A stretch of 25,300 nt of DNA from a virus. A program made the position numbers and the translations under genes. Positions 10,902 through 25,256 of the stretch are shown piece after piece; within the stretch, counting starts at the first letter, position 1, and each line of letters begins with the position of its first letter. The stretch spans positions 1-25,300 of the IMG/VR virus record IMGVR_UViG_3300021976_000068; one strand, given 5' to 3'. Below the pieces are notes generated by a model. That model saw only the letters and a program-made list of their open reading frames with translations. It was not told where the DNA came from and did no database searches.

Positions 10902-12710
10902 TCAGTCCGCCCCCAGTTCTTGCGCCTGCCGGCTATCCGATGAGAACAGCACCACATCGCGCTCATTTATCTGGTCGCGGAACTGCGTCATGAGATAGTC
11001 AACCGTCTCGCGGTTGCCAAAAAAGTTGCCGTGGATATGCACTTGCAAGGCCGAGTCCTGCACTGCGGCGTTGTCATTCGCGGCCGTGTTGGTGCTTTGC
11101 GTGTTGATAGGATTGGAAGGCGAGCCGATGGGAGCGCCACCGGCGGAATTGATAGATGAGATTTCGCCGTACGTTGAGGCGGCGATAGCGGCGAGATTCG
11201 CGATGGTGAACGCTTTTGCCCATGCGATAGGCGCGAGGTTGTACGGCGGGGGCAGCGAGGCAGCGGCTTGCGCGATGGCAACCTGACCCAGTACAAACGC
11301 CTCGCTCATTGCGCGCGCCTTCTGGATCAGTACAAGCGCAATGGCGACCTTCTTTGATCCGCCCGCGAAAGATTGCAGCGCGCGGATGCCGGCATCCGCA
11401 GCGGCGTTGCGCGTTGCGGTGATCGCCTCCGCTGCGCTTGCCTCATCCGTCACCGCCTTCTCGCGCACGTATGTGGCGTAAGCGGCTCGTGCATCCAATT
11501 CCGCCGCGACACTGGCCGAGATAATCTTCTCATTCTCGACGGCCACGGCGGCGGCGCCCTGCCCGATGTCGAGCATGTCTCTCGCCCTGTTCTCGGCGAT
11601 GCTGATTGTGAGCTGCGCGTATGCCTCCGCCAGTTCATCAACTACCCGCTTCATCGCCCGGATTGGCTCTAGGTCAATCTCCTGAATAAGCAAATCCGTT
11701 TCAGCCCCTGCGCGCGCCATTTCTGCCTGCGCCAGCACCTTGGCTACATCGCGCTGCCCAATCGCCTGCAGCTTCTGACTGACCACATCAATGCGCGCCG
11801 GCAGTCCGTCCAGCTCCCAGTTAAGGCGCCTGATGGTCGTGGCCCGCACGTCATCGAAGAGCCCCGTGCTTGCCGTCGCCTCCAGGTCACGCACGATTTT
11901 GAGTTTCTTCGCGCGCTCGTCCAGCAAGCGGTTCAACTCCGCTTGCAGTATCTGCACCTCTCCGGTCGGCCCCTTGATGGCAGCCACCACGTATTGAAAG
12001 CCGAGAATGGCCTCGCCGAAAAAGTTCGCGGTGAACGCGCCCGCCGTTGCGTACAGCTGCTTGAGCGCCTTGTCTGCTTCACCGATGCCCTTCGCGGTCT
12101 CCACCGACATGGTGATACCGAGACGGTCCGCTGCCGCCGTCAGGGCTACGATTCCCTCGCGCCCTTGAATGAGTAGCGGCACCAGTTGCGGCCCGGCTGA
12201 CTTTCCGAACAGCTCGACAGCAAGGCGCGTGCGATCCGCTGGGCTGGTGATTTGCGTGAATGCTTCGGCCACCTCGCCCAGTTGCTGGCTGAGGGTAAGG
12301 CCCTGCAAATCCTTTGCATGCAGTCCGAACTTTGCGAGCAGCACGCCCGCCTCTTTGCTTTGATCGCCCGCCTTTGACATGGCGATTTGAAAGCGCTGAA
12401 TGCCGGTCGTGAACGCGCCTAGCTCTACGTCACTCTGTTGGGCCGCATACTTCAGCTTTGAGAATTCATCCACCGCGACGCCCGCACGGTCGGCCGCATC
12501 GCTGAGAGCATCGGCGGCAGCGAACGACGATTTCGCAAACGCCACCAGCGAGCCCACGCCGAACACAGCGAGGAAGCCATTCGCAATGTTCTTTGCAGAG
12601 TTAAAGCCGCCCTCTAAATTCTTGAGCGATGAATTAACCTTCTTCAGTTCCGCCGTGAATTTCGCCGTTTCGGCTGCGAAATCTACGGTCACTGTTCCTG
12701 CGTTTGCCAT
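10902..12710 (-). CDS. Tail tape measure protein
   Basis: This 602-residue protein has the typical start AETAKFTAELKKVNSSLKNL and a tape-measure core with FAKSSFAAADALSDAADRAG, TAGAFTANFFGE, LAVELFGKSAGPQLVPLL and long Ala-rich helices. Hydrophobic stretches follow near residues 440-515. Tape measures set tail length and are ejected with the DNA. At the usual ~0.15 nm per residue, 602 residues predict a tail tube of about 90 nm. The start lies inside the frameshifted chaperone frame (overlap 12634-12710), the normal order G, G-T, tape measure. Smaller than lambda H, but within the family range. Confidence 0.93.
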   Translation of the reverse strand: MANAGTVTVDFAAETAKFTAELKKVNSSLKNLEGGFNSAKNIANGFLAVFGVGSLVAFAKSSFAAADALSDAADRAGVAVDEFSKLKYAAQQSDVELGAFTTGIQRFQIAMSKAGDQSKEAGVLLAKFGLHAKDLQGLTLSQQLGEVAEAFTQITSPADRTRLAVELFGKSAGPQLVPLLIQGREGIVALTAAADRLGITMSVETAKGIGEADKALKQLYATAGAFTANFFGEAILGFQYVVAAIKGPTGEVQILQAELNRLLDERAKKLKIVRDLEATASTGLFDDVRATTIRRLNWELDGLPARIDVVSQKLQAIGQRDVAKVLAQAEMARAGAETDLLIQEIDLEPIRAMKRVVDELAEAYAQLTISIAENRARDMLDIGQGAAAVAVENEKIISASVAAELDARAAYATYVREKAVTDEASAAEAITATRNAAADAGIRALQSFAGGSKKVAIALVLIQKARAMSEAFVLGQVAIAQAAASLPPPYNLAPIAWAKAFTIANLAAIAASTYGEISSINSAGGAPIGSPSNPINTQSTNTAANDNAAVQDSALQVHIHGNFFGNRETVDYLMTQFRDQINERDVVLFSSDSRQAQELGAD

Positions 12711-13038
12711 GCTTTGCTCGCAAGTATTCGGACTGACTGCGGGATAATTTCGGTTGATCGCTGGTGCGGATCACCGGATAGAAATCGCTGGGCTTGTGCG
12801 GCTTCGGCCGCTTCGCGCCTTTTGGTAGCGCGATGGTTCGGTGAATGGCGTTGATGACTTCGGCGGCGATCATTCCCGCGCGCCAGTTGTCCATCTCGTA
12901 GCCGAACGGCTCAATGCGCGTGTACGCGCACCATTCTGTAAATTCCTGAGAACTCATTCGGCGCTGCAACTCGTCAACCGTGCAGCCGAACGCAAGCGCC
13001 AGCCGGTGCCATGTCAGGCGGTCGGGCTGGCGTCGGAT
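12634..13038 (-). CDS. Tail assembly chaperone, T-like extension reached by -1 frameshift (G-T fusion)
   Basis: This frame has no ATG or credible ribosome site before its coding signal, but it is entered by a -1 shift from the G-like gene at 13038. It contributes 134 residues starting IRRQPDRLTWHRLALAFG, then MSSQEFTEWCAYTRIEPFG and WRAGMIAAEVINAIH, which match the DUF4035/minor tail T family ('S-x-x-E-F-x-E-W-x-A-Y-x-R-x-E-P-F-G'). The full fusion would be 245 residues (111 from G). In lambda, gpG and gpG-T bind the tape measure and recruit tail tube subunits, in a fixed ratio set by frameshift efficiency. The end overlaps the tape measure start. Confidence 0.85.
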   Translation of the reverse strand: MRRQPDRLTWHRLALAFGCTVDELQRRMSSQEFTEWCAYTRIEPFGYEMDNWRAGMIAAEVINAIHRTIALPKGAKRPKPHKPSDFYPVIRTSDQPKLSRSQSEYLRAKHGKRRNSDRRFRSRNGEIHGGTEEG

Positions 13039-13044
13039 TTTTTT
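12997..13044 (-). promoter_or_regulatory. -1 programmed ribosomal frameshift element (slippery heptamer plus stem-loop)
   Basis: Read on the - strand, the zero frame is GCA GAA AAA AAA TCC, which gives the canonical heptamer A_AAA_AAA at 13044-13038 (part of a run of eight A). After a 5-base spacer (TCCGA), CGCCAGCC (13032-13025) pairs perfectly with GGCTGGCG (13004-12997), leaving a 20-base loop that contains the zero-frame TGA. Spacer length and a GC-rich 8-bp stem match known -1 stimulators. Slippage changes the frame exactly into the T-like frame. A pseudoknot with bases in the loop is possible but was not tested. Confidence 0.9.
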
Positions 13045-13370
13045 TCTGCGTCGTCTCCCGCCTTTGCGGTAAGCCCCGAGACTTCCTGCAACCGTCGGCA
13101 AATGATGTCGAGCGTTGGCGTGTTCATCGCCGCCACCTCTCGCACATCGTCCTCGTTATCCGGGTCATACCCGGCCGTACCGTCCGCCTCGCAAAGCCCG
13201 AGCGCGGCGATGCGGCCGAAGGGGTATTTCCCGTCGGCCTCCTGCACGATATCTACATACTTCTGCCGCGTCGTTCCGTCGAACGCTCGCACGTAAAACA
13301 CGCCATCATCGGTGGGCACCGGATGAATCTTTGCCCGCGCGTTGCGAACCTGATCGCGAAGGCTGCTCAT
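13014..13370 (-). CDS. Tail assembly chaperone, G-like
   Basis: This 118-residue protein (MSSLRDQVRNARAKIHPVPT) has the phrase GVFYVRAFDGTTRQKYVDI, then KYPFGRIAALGLCEADGTAG and a DI-x-x-R-x-L-x-E-x-S-G-L-T helix. This is the usual form of phage tail assembly chaperones, which start with a short beta-sheet part and end in a charged tail. The product stops seven codons after the slippery site. It is coupled (ATGA, 13367-13370) to the major tail protein gene, which precedes it as in many siphoviruses. The unshifted form is expected to be the abundant one. Confidence 0.88.
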   Translation of the reverse strand: MSSLRDQVRNARAKIHPVPTDDGVFYVRAFDGTTRQKYVDIVQEADGKYPFGRIAALGLCEADGTAGYDPDNEDDVREVAAMNTPTLDIICRRLQEVSGLTAKAGDDAEKKSDASPTA

Positions 13371-14765: not shown

Positions 14766-15116
14766 TTACACCACCGAATGTTCGGCAACGGCAAAGATCA
14801 GTTGGAGATTGCGCATCTCGGGATTAATGACCGCCTGAATGTCATACGTGCGGCCATTGCAGATGATGCGGTCGGCTGTCGTCACGTCCGCGAGCGCGGC
14901 GGCATAGCGGCACGTGACCGTTGCGGAAATCTTCGTCTGCGTTTGCAACGAGGCGAAGTATTCCTGTTTGTCGGTGATCGGTTCTATCAGCCCGCGCAGC
15001 GTGGCAATCTGAAACCACGCGCCTATCTCTTCCTTGTACGCATTGCGCAGCGTTTCGCGCCGTTCAAAGCGCAGCGTGTGCTGCAGCTGCCCAGCGGCGA
15101 GGCGTCGAACGGTCAT
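14766..15116 (-). CDS. Head-tail adaptor (SPP1 gp16 / phage head-tail joining family)
   Basis: This 116-residue protein (MTVRRLAAGQLQHTLRFERR) has WFQIATLRGLIEPITDKQEY, followed by YFASLQTQTKISATVTCRYA, TADRIICNGRTYDIQAVINP and a terminal strand. The order 'L-x-x-R-x-x-x-x-R ... W-x-x-x-x-x-x-x-x-x-P-x-x-x-x-E ... T-x-x-x-x-R-Y ... R-I-x-x-x-G-x-x-Y-x-I-x-x-V-x-N' is typical of head-tail joining proteins that stop the connector. I chose the ATG at 15116, which overlaps the upstream stop (ATGA), over an in-frame codon eight residues earlier. Its partner connector (17826-18128) is separated from it by the three-gene fibre cassette. Confidence 0.85.
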   Translation of the reverse strand: MTVRRLAAGQLQHTLRFERRETLRNAYKEEIGAWFQIATLRGLIEPITDKQEYFASLQTQTKISATVTCRYAAALADVTTADRIICNGRTYDIQAVINPEMRNLQLIFAVAEHSVV

Positions 15117-16090
15117 CCGGAGACCGCCAAACCCAGCCACGCGTTATCGGCGGCGCTTGTGCGTATTGTCCACGTGATGCCATCGGGCGAAGTCATCACG
15201 CGATTCCCGACGCCGCTACTTGCGGCGGCAATGAATAGGCCCAAGGACGAGGACCACACGACCCCGACCCACTTGTTATCCGCTGCGCTCGTGCGGCTGG
15301 TCCACGTGATGCCATCGGGCGAAGTCATCACGCGATTCCCGACGCCCGTGTCGGAGACGGCTACGAGCAGATTCAGGGAAGGGGACCACGCGACCCCGAC
15401 CCATGCATTGGTATTCGGTGCCGCTGCGCGGGCGGTCCACGTAGCGCCATCGGGCGAAGTCATCGCGCGATTGCTCGCCCCGGCACTGGCGACGGCAACG
15501 AACAGGGACAAGGACGGGCACCATATGACGCTTCGCCACGCGGCGACAACTGGGCTGGTGCGATTCGTCCACGCAAAACCATCCGGAGACGTTGTAAGCC
15601 CGATGCCATTGTCAGCGACCGCAACGAACAGGCCCAACGCAGCGGACCATGTAACGGCGCGCCAAGGATTTCCCGATGCGAAATTTCCCACCGTCCACGT
15701 GACGGCATCGGGCGAAGTCATCACGCGCTGAAATGCCAAAATATCCGAACTCGACGCGACCGCGACCACTCGACTTAAAGACGCGGACCACGCCAGTGCC
15801 TGCCAAGTCGCCGAGGCGACGCTCGTGCGGCTGGTCCACGTGATGCCATCGGGCGAAGTCATCACGCGTCCGCCGCTGCCGGTGCTGGTCGCCACTGCAA
15901 CGAAAAGCCCGAGTTCCTCAATCCACTCGACGCCTCTCCACAAGAGGTCAGGCGCACTGCGCACTGTCCACGCGATGCCGTCGGGTGAAGTCATAACGCG
16001 ATCGCCGGTGCCGGTGTTGCCCACCACGACAATCATGGGGGGCTTGGCCGCGTTCTTAATTGCAGCCGCTACATTCACTGCGCCGGTCAT
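15113..16090 (-). CDS. Seven-repeat beta-propeller protein
   Basis: This 325-residue protein is built from seven repeats of 42-47 residues. Each carries an MTSPDGxxWTxR motif, then W-x-x-V-x-W and L-x-L-F-V-A-V-A. The motif is close to the sialidase-type Asp-box (S-x-D-x-G-x-x-W), but one residue shorter between D and G. The N-terminus supplies IVVVGNTGTGDR, and the last repeat ends at LGLAVSG, lacking the strand that the N-terminus provides. This is the typical ring closure of a seven-bladed propeller. The start at 16090 overlaps the collagen gene stop by ATGA. Propellers often bind glycans or proteins, but no catalytic residues are evident. A surface adhesin is inferred. Confidence 0.85.
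   Translation of the reverse strand: MTGAVNVAAAIKNAAKPPMIVVVGNTGTGDRVMTSPDGIAWTVRSAPDLLWRGVEWIEELGLFVAVATSTGSGGRVMTSPDGITWTSRTSVASATWQALAWSASLSRVVAVASSSDILAFQRVMTSPDAVTWTVGNFASGNPWRAVTWSAALGLFVAVADNGIGLTTSPDGFAWTNRTSPVVAAWRSVIWCPSLSLFVAVASAGASNRAMTSPDGATWTARAAAPNTNAWVGVAWSPSLNLLVAVSDTGVGNRVMTSPDGITWTSRTSAADNKWVGVVWSSSLGLFIAAASSGVGNRVMTSPDGITWTIRTSAADNAWLGLAVSG
15168..16000 (-). repeat. Seven tandem coding repeats (126-141 bases each) of the propeller gene
   Basis: Copies of a block beginning GTCCACGTGATGCC on the + strand occur at 15168, 15300, 15435, 15567, 15693, 15834 and 15966. The spacings are 132, 135, 132, 126, 141 and 132 bases, all multiples of three. The copies at 15168, 15300 and 15834 are nearly identical over more than 30 bases, while the copy at 15567 is the most diverged. 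Recent duplication or gene conversion between blades is likely. The array could change blade number by recombination. Confidence 0.85.
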
Positions 16091-17478
16091 GTGATGCCCG
16101 CGCCGTTGATGACCCACGTGGTTGAGGCCACCTTCAGCAGACTGGCCAACCCGTTCGGCGCGAGCGTTCGGGCGCCGGTGTTCGCCGTGCCCGCCTGCCG
16201 CAACGTGTCAGTGGTAATCGCAATCGCCAAATTTGCGGAGGCGCCGTCGTTCCACAAAAGAATTACCGAGCCGATGGGGAATGCGATGCTTGCATCGGCT
16301 GGAATCGTGTACGTGTGCGCGAACGCTGAGCCATGAAAAACCAGCTTGCCGCGATCCGTAAGCGCGAACGTGTAATCGTTATTCTGCGCATTCCGTTCTG
16401 CGTCAGGGTTGCCGAACTCCGCACTGCTCCTGCCGTCCAGTAAATCCGCGTCGAGCCCAGACGCAGCGCCGTCCACCGTCAACAGTTTTGCAAGTACCTG
16501 GGCCGCAGTGTCCGGCGACCCATCCGCACCGGCTGCGCCCGTTGCGCCCGTTGCACCGGGCGCCCCGTCATTGCCATCGGCGCCGGGCACGCCTTGAATA
16601 CCTTGCGGGCCCGCTTCGCCCTGCGGCCCTTCCGCACCGGTATCGCCGGTTGCGCCATCAGCACCCGCGATTCCGGGAATGCCCTGCGGGCCTTCGGCGC
16701 CGGTGTCCCCGTCCGCACCATCCGCCCCGGCAATTCCCGGAATCCCCTGCGCGCCCGTCGCGCCAGTTGCCCCCGTTGCGCCGTCAACGCCGTCAGTACC
16801 ATCGGCGCCGGGAATGCCCTGTATGCCTTGTGCCCCGTCCGCGCCGTCAGCGCCGGCCGCGCCCGTAAGCCCGATTGGCCCTTGTGCGCCTGCCTCCCCA
16901 TCAGCACCGGGGGCGCCATCGGCACCAGCGATGCCTTGCGGCCCCGCGTCGCCCGTCTCCCCCACCGCTCCTGCAACGCCTTGCGCGCCGTCTGCGCCCG
17001 GTTCGCCGGGCACGCCTTGAATGCCTTGCGGCCCCACTTCGCCGGCTTCGCCTTGTGCGCCTGCAGCGCCCTGAATCCCTTGCGCGCCGGCTGCGCCTGT
17101 TGCGCCGTCAACGCCGTCAAGTCCTGCCACGCCTTGCGGGCCTTGCGGGCCTTCGGCGCCGGGGGCGCCAGTCAACCCAATGACACCTTGCGGCCCGGCT
17201 TCGCCTTGCACGCCTTGTGCCCCGGTTTCACCCGGTGCCCCTGCGACGCCTTGCGGCCCTTCGGCGCCGGGCGCTCCGTCCGCTCCGTCCGCTCCTGCGG
17301 CGCCCGTTGCGCCATCAATTCCGGGTAAGCCATCCGCACCGGGAATTCCTTGCACACCTGCCTCGCCGGCTGGGCCTTGCGGACCAATCGGGCCCGGCAT
17401 TCCCTGCGGCGCGCTGACAACGGTGCGGCCGTCCACAATGGTGACGTGTGTCGCGTCCTCTACAACACGAACGCTCAT
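16087..17478 (-). CDS. Collagen-like fibre protein
   Basis: This 463-residue protein has a short N-terminus (1-25, SVRVVEDATHVTIVDGRTVV), then 98 uninterrupted Gly-X-Y triplets (residues 26-319). A 144-residue C-terminus contains LDADLLDGRSSAEF and a beta-rich tip (YTFALTDRGKLVFHG, IGSVILLWNDGASANLAIA). The 'D-A-D-x-L-D-G-x-S-x-x-x-F' phrase is common in phage fibre tips. Such repeats form trimeric triple helices. With ~0.29 nm per residue this would be about 84 nm long. It lies between genes for head connectors, not in the tail-fibre region, so it may form head or neck fibres, a role inferred from context. Both ends are coupled by ATGA overlaps. Confidence 0.9.
   Translation of the reverse strand: MSVRVVEDATHVTIVDGRTVVSAPQGMPGPIGPQGPAGEAGVQGIPGADGLPGIDGATGAAGADGADGAPGAEGPQGVAGAPGETGAQGVQGEAGPQGVIGLTGAPGAEGPQGPQGVAGLDGVDGATGAAGAQGIQGAAGAQGEAGEVGPQGIQGVPGEPGADGAQGVAGAVGETGDAGPQGIAGADGAPGADGEAGAQGPIGLTGAAGADGADGAQGIQGIPGADGTDGVDGATGATGATGAQGIPGIAGADGADGDTGAEGPQGIPGIAGADGATGDTGAEGPQGEAGPQGIQGVPGADGNDGAPGATGATGAAGADGSPDTAAQVLAKLLTVDGAASGLDADLLDGRSSAEFGNPDAERNAQNNDYTFALTDRGKLVFHGSAFAHTYTIPADASIAFPIGSVILLWNDGASANLAIAITTDTLRQAGTANTGARTLAPNGLASLLKVASTTWVINGAGIT
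16522..17403 (-). repeat. Gly-X-Y (collagen) coding repeat, 98 triplets
   Basis: Every third codon is Gly over 294 residues with no break. The commonest triplets are GAD, GPQ, GAT, GAQ and GAA, and longer blocks recur, such as GDTGAEGPQG and GAQGIPGIAGADGA. The nucleotide repeats are imperfect, which suggests age or selection rather than a fresh expansion. The region also creates long open frames on the other strand that are not genes. Confidence 0.9.
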
Positions 17479-17822
17479 ACCGTCACTTCCTGAGACAGCA
17501 ACACGTCCCCTTCAATCAGCCGCGTTACCTCGTCTTCCTTGACCATCTCCAAGTCGTAGACCGCATCCGTGCCAGTCATGGCCATCGTCTCTGCAGCCGT
17601 GATAATGAGATCGATACGCCCCTCGACCGCGACCAGCTGAATGCGCCCGTTCTCCGTCGTCAGCGCCAGCACCAAGCTGTTCTCCAGCTTGGTGCGTATC
17701 TGCATGCGCGCGGTGTAGCCGGTCAGATCAATCGGCGCTGCCGGTGCTTCGGTCTCCCAATAGAGGGTTCGTCGAAACGTCGCGCCCTTCTCGATGATCA
17801 AATCGAGTTTTCCGGCGGACAT
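17475..17822 (-). CDS. Small beta-sandwich structural protein (BppU-N-like, tentative)
   Basis: This 115-residue protein (MSAGKLDLIIEKGATFRRTL) continues YWETEAPAAPIDLTGYTARM, GRIQLVAVEGRIDLIITAAE and TGTDAVYDLEMVKEDEVTRL. The pattern 'G-x-x-F-x-x-x-L-x-W...D-L-T-G-Y-x-A-R-M-Q-I-R...G-x-I-x-L...A-V-Y-D-L-E...V-x-R-L-x-E-G-x-V-x-x-S-x-E-V-T' is frequent in phages next to capsid or fibre genes. It resembles the N-terminal attachment domain of BppU-type baseplate proteins. An anchor for the adjacent collagen fibre is a reasonable hypothesis. It is coupled to the collagen gene by ATGA at 17475-17478. Confidence 0.8.
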   Translation of the reverse strand: MSAGKLDLIIEKGATFRRTLYWETEAPAAPIDLTGYTARMQIRTKLENSLVLALTTENGRIQLVAVEGRIDLIITAAETMAMTGTDAVYDLEMVKEDEVTRLIEGDVLLSQEVTV

Positions 17823-17825
17823 ACT

Positions 17826-18128
17826 TCAGACTCCCATGCCGATGCGGTACGGCTGCAGCAACTGAAACGGCACCTGCAGTTCGCTGCTGATGGTTCCCAC
17901 CACGATGCTTTCTTTATTCGCGACCATATCGGCGACCCAGAAAAGAACAGCGGCGCGGATGGGCGCGGGAATGCCTTCGCCGCCTTCGGGCACCAGCGTG
18001 GCAAGCGCGAGGTTTAAGTAATCGGCGGCGCGCTGTTCAGCGGTGTCGATATAGAACTGCAACAGTGAATCGGAAATTTCCGTGGAAACGTTGCAGTGAG
18101 CTTTCGCGAGCGCGAGCGTCACATACAT
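17826..18128 (-). CDS. Head-tail connector, HK97 gp6-like
   Basis: This 100-residue helical protein (MYVTLALAKAHCNVSTEISD) continues SLLQFYIDTAEQRAADYLNL and APIRAAVLFWVADMVANKES. Starting with 'L-x-x-A-K-x-H-x-x-V', then 'D-x-x-x-x-x-Y-I-x-x-A', and ending with 'P-x-x-x-A-x-L-x-x-V-x-x-x-x-x-x-R/K-E', it fits the gp6-like connector family (PF05135). Members form a ring under the portal. I chose the ATG at 18128 although the frame is open further upstream, because the family begins with MYVTL and the upstream extension is just Arg/Ala-rich. Confidence 0.87.
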   Translation of the reverse strand: MYVTLALAKAHCNVSTEISDSLLQFYIDTAEQRAADYLNLALATLVPEGGEGIPAPIRAAVLFWVADMVANKESIVVGTISSELQVPFQLLQPYRIGMGV

Positions 18129-23402: not shown

Positions 23403-23808
23403 CTCGCACCCGTGTACGTGACGACGGTGTGAATCCCATTTCGGCAGCGGCTTTCATCATGAGAATCGCTTGCTTGTTCAGGATCGGCATATACGGATTC
23501 TGTTGCCACGCGCCATTCGCGCCGACGCGAACGAGCGCGCCGTGCCGCGCGACCTTCTCCGATGCCTGCCGGTGCAAGTCCTCGGCGATCACCCAAACGC
23601 TCAGGATGGATTGGTCCAGCTGCCGCAACAGGCCACCGGGCGCCTTCGCGATGGCGTAGCGCCAGCCGTCTTGCTGGCTCGCGGTCATCCACGCGGGTGG
23701 CTCAATCAGGTCGCCGGCCGGCTGCGGCTCTTCCTTGTTGAGCGGGCGGTGCCCGGCGTTGCCGTCAAGCACGCGTAGGTAGGTTGGTTTCGGTTTCGGT
23801 CCGCGCAT
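23341..23808 (-). CDS. Terminase small subunit, P27 family
   Basis: This 155-residue protein starts MRGPKPKPTYLRVLDGNAGH and continues RPLNKEEPQP. The 'M-R-G-x-K-P-K-P-x-x-L-x-x-x-x-G-N-x-G-x-R-P-L-N' start is characteristic of P27-type small subunits (PF05119). So is the later WQQNPYMPILNKQAILMMKA, where phage relatives have 'x-N-P-x-x-x-I-x-x-x-A'. It recognises the packaging site and recruits the large subunit. I take the ATG at 23808 because this is where the family begins; the frame is open to 23865 inside the Mom-like gene. The end overlaps the upstream part of the large subunit frame. Confidence 0.92.
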   Translation of the reverse strand: MRGPKPKPTYLRVLDGNAGHRPLNKEEPQPAGDLIEPPAWMTASQQDGWRYAIAKAPGGLLRQLDQSILSVWVIAEDLHRQASEKVARHGALVRVGANGAWQQNPYMPILNKQAILMMKAAAEMGFTPSSRTRVRVEKSRNAANAFSDLKEFTDD

Positions 23809-24601
23809 AGTTTGGAGCGTCTGGGTCGGCGCTACCCCGCCGCTGTACCGCTGGTGGGCGGTCATCGCTTGCTTCAGACGCCTTCTTTCCTCGATACATT
23901 GCCGCGCCCGCTTCGCGAATGCTGCTGAATGGCAGCACGGGAACAGTCAGCCGCGAACGTGCGGCGGGGTTCAGAAAATAGACGTAGCGCATTTGGAAGC
24001 CGGGCAACAATGTGCCGCCCATCTCACGCAGCACCGCAAGCCCAGCGCCGCCGCCTTTCGAGATACGGGCGCCCGTCTTGATGGTCATATCAGCGACGAT
24101 GCGGTCGCCGCCTTTCAGAATGTGCCGGTCCTTCGTCATGGTCATTTTCGACACGATGCCAGCGGGCACCCGGTACAGCGTGCGGTTGGGATTGACTTGC
24201 GTTAGGACGAAGCCGGACGCGCGATAGATCGTGCCATCCCCGCACTGCGTGGCATCGGCGAAGCTGACCACCCATTCAATGTGCGGGTAATGCTTCCGCA
24301 TCAGCATGAAGGCGATGGATAGCGCGCGGCTCTCGCTGTTGCGCGGTAGCTTTTCCGAGAACGCCATACGATTCAGTTCAATGAATCCGTTCCAAAGCGT
24401 GCCGCTGACCAGCCCCTGCAGCTTGCGCTTATCCATCGAGGGACCGAACTGCATCGCGCCTTCAAGCTTGCCGGCGATGAACACGCCGAAATGCAGCTGA
24501 GAATTTCGCGTTACCTTGCCGCTGTAGTGGACCCGGCGAATCAGCGCGCCCGCATCCTGCGCCGCGATGGGCGCAACGAGAATGTCTTTAGCCGTCGCCA
24601 T
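23765..24601 (-). CDS. Mom-like DNA modification protein (GNAT-fold, putative adenine modifier)
   Basis: This 278-residue protein has, in order, RRVHYSGKVTRNSQLHFGVF (residues 22-41), LEGAMQFGPSMDKRK, GFIELNRMAF (72-81), PRNSESRALSIAF (86-98) and SFADATQCGDGTIYRASGF (113-131). I recognise this set from phage proteins annotated as Mom family, named after Mu Mom, which changes adenine in phage DNA to N6-(1-acetamido) or methylcarbamoyl-type adenine and blocks restriction. About 50 Lys/Arg-rich, low-complexity residues at the end look non-conserved. It overlaps the ParB-like gene by 14 bases and the small terminase by 44, so it belongs to the packaging operon. Substrate and activity are not shown here. 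Confidence 0.78.
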   Translation of the reverse strand: MATAKDILVAPIAAQDAGALIRRVHYSGKVTRNSQLHFGVFIAGKLEGAMQFGPSMDKRKLQGLVSGTLWNGFIELNRMAFSEKLPRNSESRALSIAFMLMRKHYPHIEWVVSFADATQCGDGTIYRASGFVLTQVNPNRTLYRVPAGIVSKMTMTKDRHILKGGDRIVADMTIKTGARISKGGGAGLAVLREMGGTLLPGFQMRYVYFLNPAARSRLTVPVLPFSSIREAGAAMYRGKKASEASDDRPPAVQRRGSADPDAPNYARTETETNLPTRA

Positions 24602-25256
24602 TCTGGGTCAGAAAGATTTCGCAGACTCTGGCCAGCGCGTTGCCGTTGCCGTTGTCGTTCGGGCTGTCATCGAAATGGCCGAGTGCCTTCGCTGCGGCCA
24701 GCGCGCGCTCTAAAGTCGCGTGCTGCTCGTCGTGCAACGTGAAGGTGACTTGACGAAACGGGGCGCGGTCCCCGTCCGACATCGCCGGCATACCGTCCAG
24801 CGGCGGCACATTCGGCGTTCCGATCAGCTCGTTTAGCTCCGCTGTCTCGAATCCGATCAGGGGCAAAGGGAAGCCGAGGTCGCGTAACTCGTCCAGTTCG
24901 ACCGCCAAGACTTCCGAATCCCACTCCGCATTCATCGCAAGCTTGTTATCCGCGATGACGTACGCGCGCTTTTGCGCCTCGGTCCAGCCGCGCGCGATCA
25001 TGACCGGGGCTTCCGTAAAGCCCAATTGTCGCGCTGCCATCACGCGGCCATGCCCCGCAATGATGGTGCCGTCCTCGTCAACAAGTATGGGATTCGTCCA
25101 GCCCCATTCCTTCATCGATGCGGCGAGCTGCGCAACTTGCGATTCCGAATGTGTACGCGCGTTGCTCGCGTACGGCATGAGGCGATCAAGGGACCATCGC
25201 TCGACGTGATCGGCGGGCCACGTTGCCGAAACAACAGGCTCCCCGGCCGGAATCAT
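24588..25256 (-). CDS. ParB-like (ParB/sulfiredoxin superfamily) protein
   Basis: This 222-residue protein has an N-terminal ParB-like domain: LMPYASNARTHSESQVAQLA, SMKEWGWTNPILVDEDG, IIAGHGRVMAARQLG (about 65-79), PVMIARGWTEAQKRAYVIAD and NKLAMNAEWD. The GHGR motif and 'A-D-N-K-L-A' are typical of phage ParB-like proteins, which often stand next to or are fused with DNA methyltransferases. Here no methyltransferase domain follows. The C-terminal third (VTFTLHDEQHATLERALAAA) is a separate small domain often seen after ParBL in phages. The GGGGGGA at 25269-25263 supports the ATG at 25256. A plasmid-partition role is unlikely. Association with the Mom-like neighbour suggests a part in DNA modification. 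Confidence 0.87.
   Translation of the reverse strand: MIPAGEPVVSATWPADHVERWSLDRLMPYASNARTHSESQVAQLAASMKEWGWTNPILVDEDGTIIAGHGRVMAARQLGFTEAPVMIARGWTEAQKRAYVIADNKLAMNAEWDSEVLAVELDELRDLGFPLPLIGFETAELNELIGTPNVPPLDGMPAMSDGDRAPFRQVTFTLHDEQHATLERALAAAKALGHFDDSPNDNGNGNALARVCEIFLTQNGDG

Follow-up and report, generated by a model that had tools for sequence, protein, structure and literature searches.

The 25,300-bp window analysed here, which is a complete IMG/VR virus record, carries in its right part an HK97-type structural module on the minus strand. Inside this module lie three coupled genes, which encode a 115-aa protein, a 463-aa collagen protein and a 325-aa seven-repeat protein, and they raise the question of what these proteins build together and where on the virion it is held. 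Our analysis favours, with some reserve, the reading that the trio encodes one LtfC-anchored ancillary adsorption fibre with a separate propeller tip, the ring being most likely at the neck.

Position of the cassette in the structural module

The module begins with terminase, portal, protease, major capsid protein (MCP), a small protein and a gp6-like connector. The cassette trio comes next, followed by a head-completion protein, a gp10-like protein and the tail terminator, and then by chaperones, tape measure and tail tip. A sequence-only reading of this DNA had proposed the trio, the four-base overlaps that couple it and the identity of its two neighbours, and all of these were recovered (Table 1). 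The three open reading frames (ORFs) lie on the minus strand where that reading had placed them, and the flanking genes match the expected connector and Phage_HCP families. The LtfC-like gene shares an ATGA with the collagen gene at 17475-17478, and the collagen gene shares another with the propeller gene at 16087-16090, where the propeller starts from an internal ATG (16090). A further ATGA overlap joins the propeller and head-completion genes (15113-15116), provided that the head-completion gene starts at ATG 15116. The listed connector ORF reaches 18230 from a TTG; its likely start is the ATG at 18128. Recent arrival of the cassette as a foreign insert was considered and rejected, as its GC, GC3 and codon usage are not distinct from those of neighbouring genes, collagen composition apart.

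Table 1. Features of the cassette and its two neighbouring genes in the window
Feature	Position	Strand	Evidence
gp6-like head-tail connector, proposed platform of the LtfC ring	17826..18128	-	PF05135 E 3e-9; phrog_40 Ad1 E 8e-15
LtfC/p132-like protein of 115 aa with Ig-type beta-sandwich, proposed to form the anchor ring of the fibre	17475..17822	-	PHROG, AF2, Foldseek
Collagen-like fibre shaft protein, 463 aa	16087..17478	-	Pfam Collagen E 2.5e-49; ATGA overlap with LtfC-like gene
Shaft N-terminal tether, aa 1-25, proposed strand insertion into LtfC ring	17404..17478	-	Same N-terminus type in post-LtfC fibres; DT57C LtfA
99 uninterrupted G-X-Y triplets	16513..17403	-	Sequence count
Shaft C-terminal domain, proposed docking platform for the tip	16090..16392	-	Last domain in 15/15 carriers; ORF next in 14/15
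Protein of 325 aa with seven SPDGxxW repeats, proposed tip adhesin of beta-propeller fold	15113..16090	-	Repeat count; fused similar repeats in L246
N-terminal segment of propeller protein, MTGAVNVAAAIKNAAKPP, possible docking peptide	16037..16090	-	Resembles MSGILNVLLA and MSGIAMMLMA starts elsewhere
Head-completion protein (Phage_HCP), downstream border of the cassette	14766..15116	-	PF05521 E 6e-18; ATGA overlap with propeller gene

A total of 80 relatives were obtained from a scan with the window MCP, and the connector and head-completion genes were both recognised in 69 of them. The two genes are -219 to +311 nt apart in these 69 relatives, which bears out the earlier statement that they usually adjoin; about 2.7 kb lies between them in the window. 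Other inserts occur one step off, between the capsid protein and the connector, in some of the MCP relatives. A fibre-like gene and then a small protein lie directly upstream of the connector in L035 (11950-13478) and L044 (12624-15643). The larger insert protein of L044 has a SASA esterase domain, and its small protein weakly resembles Gp77, the fiber-tail adaptor of GP4 (E 0.0024, below the cut-off); the insert pair is a possible second, unrelated neck fibre mount. A lipase-like protein occupies the space between capsid protein and connector in L043. Judging from these three loci, relatives too seem to acquire fibre-type genes in the connector region. Sugar- or methyl-transferase-like inserts were also seen between MCP and connector in L020, L023, L026 and L029, and the profile search gave no identity for them. 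Single-protein scans with the head-completion protein and with the propeller found no relatives, and the scan with the connector found one locus only.

Putative anchor, shaft and tip

The 115-aa protein matched PHROG 1084 (E 3e-28) and, more weakly, PHROG 3304, 'L-shaped tail fiber protein assembly' (E 7e-8). Its match to the Pfam LtfC family (PF23926, E 1e-4) scored 23.2 bits, below the gathering cut-off of 27, and therefore no formal membership of PF23926 is claimed. A profile search against solved chains matched DT57C LtfC and T5 p132 (E 3e-5 and 0.0045). The same LtfC profile gave a stronger match, the best by sequence, to PDB 26dk_M, which is listed merely as 'Structural protein'; MD8 tail proteins gave no identity for PDB 26dk. 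The AF2 model (70 sequences; pLDDT 95, pTM 0.85) has the single Ig-type beta-sandwich fold of solved LtfC and p132, and the top PDB matches in Foldseek were again DT57C LtfC and T5 p132 (TM 0.76-0.77, query-normalised; E 5e-8 to 7e-8). On its predicted structure the 115-aa protein is LtfC-like, with an Ig-type anchor fold. T5 p132 (PMC10038345) and DT57C LtfC (PMC10713586) surround p140/TTMP at the tail tip as a dodecameric ring, which holds the lateral fibres. Two N-terminal strands of DT57C LtfA augment the LtfC sheets (PMC10713586), and p132 has been linked to the BppU-type fold (PMC10038345).

The collagen run of the second protein comprises 99 perfect G-X-Y triplets, one more than the 98 counted in the sequence-only reading, and the best of 2000 residue shuffles reached 8. 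Its Pfam Collagen match and PHROG tail fibre matches place the protein among collagen-like phage fibres. The window shaft has MSVRVVEDATHVTIVDGRTVVSAPQG at its start and passes from there directly into collagen, which is the layout of other fibres encoded after LtfC, and this type of N-terminus recurs in fibre genes after LtfC in other phages. The C-terminal ~100 residues of the shaft were found in 15 non-redundant ORFs with enough downstream sequence (loci L269-L276 among them), and they form the last domain in all 15. The next ORF follows at -4 to +2 nt in 14 of the 15, with a 1- or 4-base overlap in 12. The genes after this domain are very diverse and come from unrelated phages; glycine-rich proteins, a protein annotated as lectin-like and the seven-repeat protein of the window are found among them. 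Several of them have a short hydrophobic start in common (MSGILNVLLA, MSGIAMMLMA; MTGAVNVAAA in the window). Because the domain is always last and is nearly always followed by diverse genes, several with a similar start, it is suggested to be a docking platform for separate tips.

Seven repeats had been claimed for the third protein, and the motif SPD[G/A]xxW indeed occurs seven times in its 325 amino acids at a spacing of 42-47 aa, against at most one copy in shuffles. Compared with the classical Asp box, SPDGxxW lacks one residue. We propose from this pattern and from weak, sub-threshold matches to Pfam propeller families that the repeats form a beta-propeller; the AF2 model (three sequences) reached pLDDT 44, which leaves the fold claimed earlier unconfirmed, and phmmer of the protein against the PDB gave no match. 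An LtfC-like gene in L246 is followed by a 1078-aa fibre with similar SxDGxTW repeats in its C-terminal third, 33% identical to the window protein over 237 columns. This fusion connects the repeat protein with LtfC-anchored fibres without recourse to gene position. L246 itself could not be assigned to a module, since its contig begins too near LtfC. The LtfC-type fold, the tether with its collagen, the tip-like genes after the C-terminal domain and the L246 fusion together give good support to the earlier view of anchor, shaft and tip as separate polypeptides. A search for the same trio in other phages, named in that reading as a check, found each joint again, and no other locus was found to have the complete trio as separate genes.

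LtfC-like genes and their placement in other phages

Two viral scans, one genome scan and phage records yielded a non-redundant set of 145 LtfC-like ORFs, each with a neighbouring ORF downstream. The next ORF has collagen-like triplets within its first 110 residues for 114 of the 145 LtfC-like genes listed, compared with 228 of 1841 (12%) other ORFs of the same loci, and 86 of the 145 listed overlap the next ORF by four bases (-4). These counts are descriptive, because the scans were seeded with the window LtfC and its relatives, kept best matches only and gave loci that are not mutually independent. Our survey finds LtfC-like genes to be widespread, with a fibre partner in many phages beyond the T5-like ones and often at a neck position. 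This extends the range of a gene that, together with p140, has been called a landmark of T5-like phages only (PMC10038345).

Placement was assessed for LtfC-like genes that had 500 nt or more of sequence on their upstream side, a non-redundant set of 130, and at least 25 of them lie in a head or neck module. A gp6-like connector is directly upstream in seven (window, L130, L201, L203, L212, L215 and L248) and an SU10-type adaptor-like gene in 11, totals that are approximate because we made both profiles ourselves, using Pfam-assigned members together with look-alikes. A window-type capsid gene occurs within 2.5 kb upstream in seven further LtfC-like genes. PHROG counts on genes upstream of LtfC were taken as totals only, with some terminase and portal neighbours among them. 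The whole gene order from terminase to tape measure is visible in L130 and L212, and the Streptomyces phages Wakanda and Patelgo have LtfC and a fibre between MCP and the head-to-tail adaptor. Many other pairs have a tail-tip or baseplate placement, as found in MD8 (in the tail-fibre region), S-SRM01, MED4-213 and L172/L173 (after tail hub genes). The sharing of genes with known tail-fibre loci, which the sequence-only reading had named as a ground for refutation, thus applies in part (MD8, cyanomyophages and L172/L173), and those loci leave the assembly site of the window's copy undecided. Head placement takes about five changes on the LtfC tree by parsimony, or two when well supported branches only are counted; the tree is used loosely because few of its forks are resolved. 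In L190, L221, L224, L229, L233, L244, L247 and L257 the LtfC and fibre genes come after the capsid protein and no connector was recognised in the interval; the fibre genes of L190 continue straight into tail-tip-like genes.

Proposed fibre, known systems and alternatives

We envisage that the LtfC-like protein would form a ring of Ig-type beta-sandwiches, most likely on or beside the gp6-like connector at the neck; twelve subunits on a connector of twelvefold symmetry would make an attractive match. The shaft protein would trimerise, its first ~25 residues adding strands to the ring and its triplets winding into a collagen triple helix. As collagen usually rises 0.29 nm per residue, the 99 triplets would span roughly 85 nm if fully extended. 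The C-terminal domain would bear the separately encoded seven-bladed propeller, and this tip may bind the host surface reversibly, probably through a glycan, while the separate tail-tip protein would serve the committed step. That tail-tip protein, of 1395 aa, has its own short collagen piece, and since the phage also possesses it, the cassette fibre probably has an ancillary role comparable to that of the lactococcal neck passage structure.

The earlier statement that no system of this make-up has been described was too strong, as close counterparts exist in T5/DT57C lateral fibres and lactococcal neck passage structures. The T5 p132 and DT57C LtfC collars (fibres pb1 and LtfA) share with the cassette the anchor fold, separate anchor and fibre genes, and, as proposed for the window, a fibre N-terminus with short beta strands before the shaft. 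Their rings, however, encircle a TTP-like ring at the tail tip, whereas the window genes are in the neck module, and the LtfA shaft begins as a coiled coil rather than collagen. Lactococcal neck passage structures (TP901-1, Tuc2009, 936 group) are likewise extra fibres beside a separate tail-tip receptor binder; they sit at the collar and combine an anchor domain of the BppU-type beta-sandwich fold with an end that binds carbohydrate, much as gene content and position suggest for the window fibre. The lactococcal fibre is one polypeptide with a coiled-coil shaft and a CBM tip, while three separate ORFs were found here in place of a single protein with BppU-like N-domain, shaft and CBM; the cassette would work like a neck passage structure and is not a member of that class. 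Unlike in the window, the neck fibre gene of P335 phages lies after the RBP gene; as this is also its place in TP901-1, gene position is an unreliable guide to virion position.

The three proteins gp82/gp81/gp80 of Anabaena phage A-1(L) also make up an anchor, a shaft and a terminal piece, and they form a neck fibre, although that anchor has a different fold and sits on a pentadecameric neck ring, and the shaft is a bead chain for which no collagen is reported. A tip adhesin encoded by a separate downstream gene, as proposed here, is found in T4-type gp37/gp38, where gp38 is glycine-rich, unlike the SPDGxxW repeat protein. SU10-type fibres are held at the adaptor below the portal, as proposed for the window. 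SU10 is short-tailed, though, and its dodecameric adaptor bears the long fibres directly, with no LtfC described there (PMC9509320).

Location is the main uncertainty: recurrent gene position, from which the neck mounting of the sequence-only reading is inferred, favours the neck, whereas the solved ring structures of LtfC point to the tail tip. The main rival accordingly keeps the LtfC-anchored fibre and follows T5 and DT57C in assembling it at the tail tip, its genes merely residing in the head-neck operon. Every solved LtfC ring described is at the tail tip, and the pairs of L172/L173 and MD8 accord with such assembly; the recurrence, in different phages, of LtfC genes immediately after a gp6-like connector or an SU10-type adaptor, and the roughly five changes on the weakly resolved tree, speak against it, and we regard it as unlikely while still a serious contender. 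The ring might instead carry a capsid-surface head fibre, for which we see a slim chance: L190, L224 and relatives, where LtfC follows MCP and a small beta-rich protein, would suit this arrangement, but the window cassette is flanked by neck genes on both sides, with coupling to one of them, and LtfC is a single ring in known cases.

It is also conceivable, at a similarly slim chance, that the seven-repeat protein is no fibre part but an enzyme or structural ring component that adjoins by chance. Propeller nozzles are known from short-tailed phages, the SU10 nozzle having a seven-bladed propeller (PMC9509320), and the repeat protein has no solved sequence homologue; against this stand the L246 fibre, which is LtfC-linked and has similar repeats fused to it, and the recurring layout of a C-terminal domain followed by a separate gene. 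For the neck fibre that we prefer, each part has known relatives, and fixation at the neck by an LtfC-type anchor would be the new element; no description of such an anchor at a phage neck was found in the open-licence literature. LtfC-type rings may well be a general plug-in fibre mount, set at the connector or adaptor in many sipho- and podophages with exchangeable shafts and separate tips, and the window its collagen and propeller case, although we stop just short of favouring this wider view. If right, it would allow ancillary neck fibres and their exchangeable tips to be predicted from genomes by a sequence signature, and would offer a route to host-binding proteins that annotations currently call hypothetical.

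Two other parts of the window may be mentioned. A Mom-type DNA modification protein (PF25680, E 1e-47) adjoins a ParB-like protein (23765-24601 and 24588-25256, minus strand), and the pair lies upstream of the terminase genes. The tail assembly chaperone ORF overlaps a Phage_tail_T-like ORF (12634-13370, minus strand), and a run of eight A in the overlap suggests a gpG/gpGT-type frameshift.
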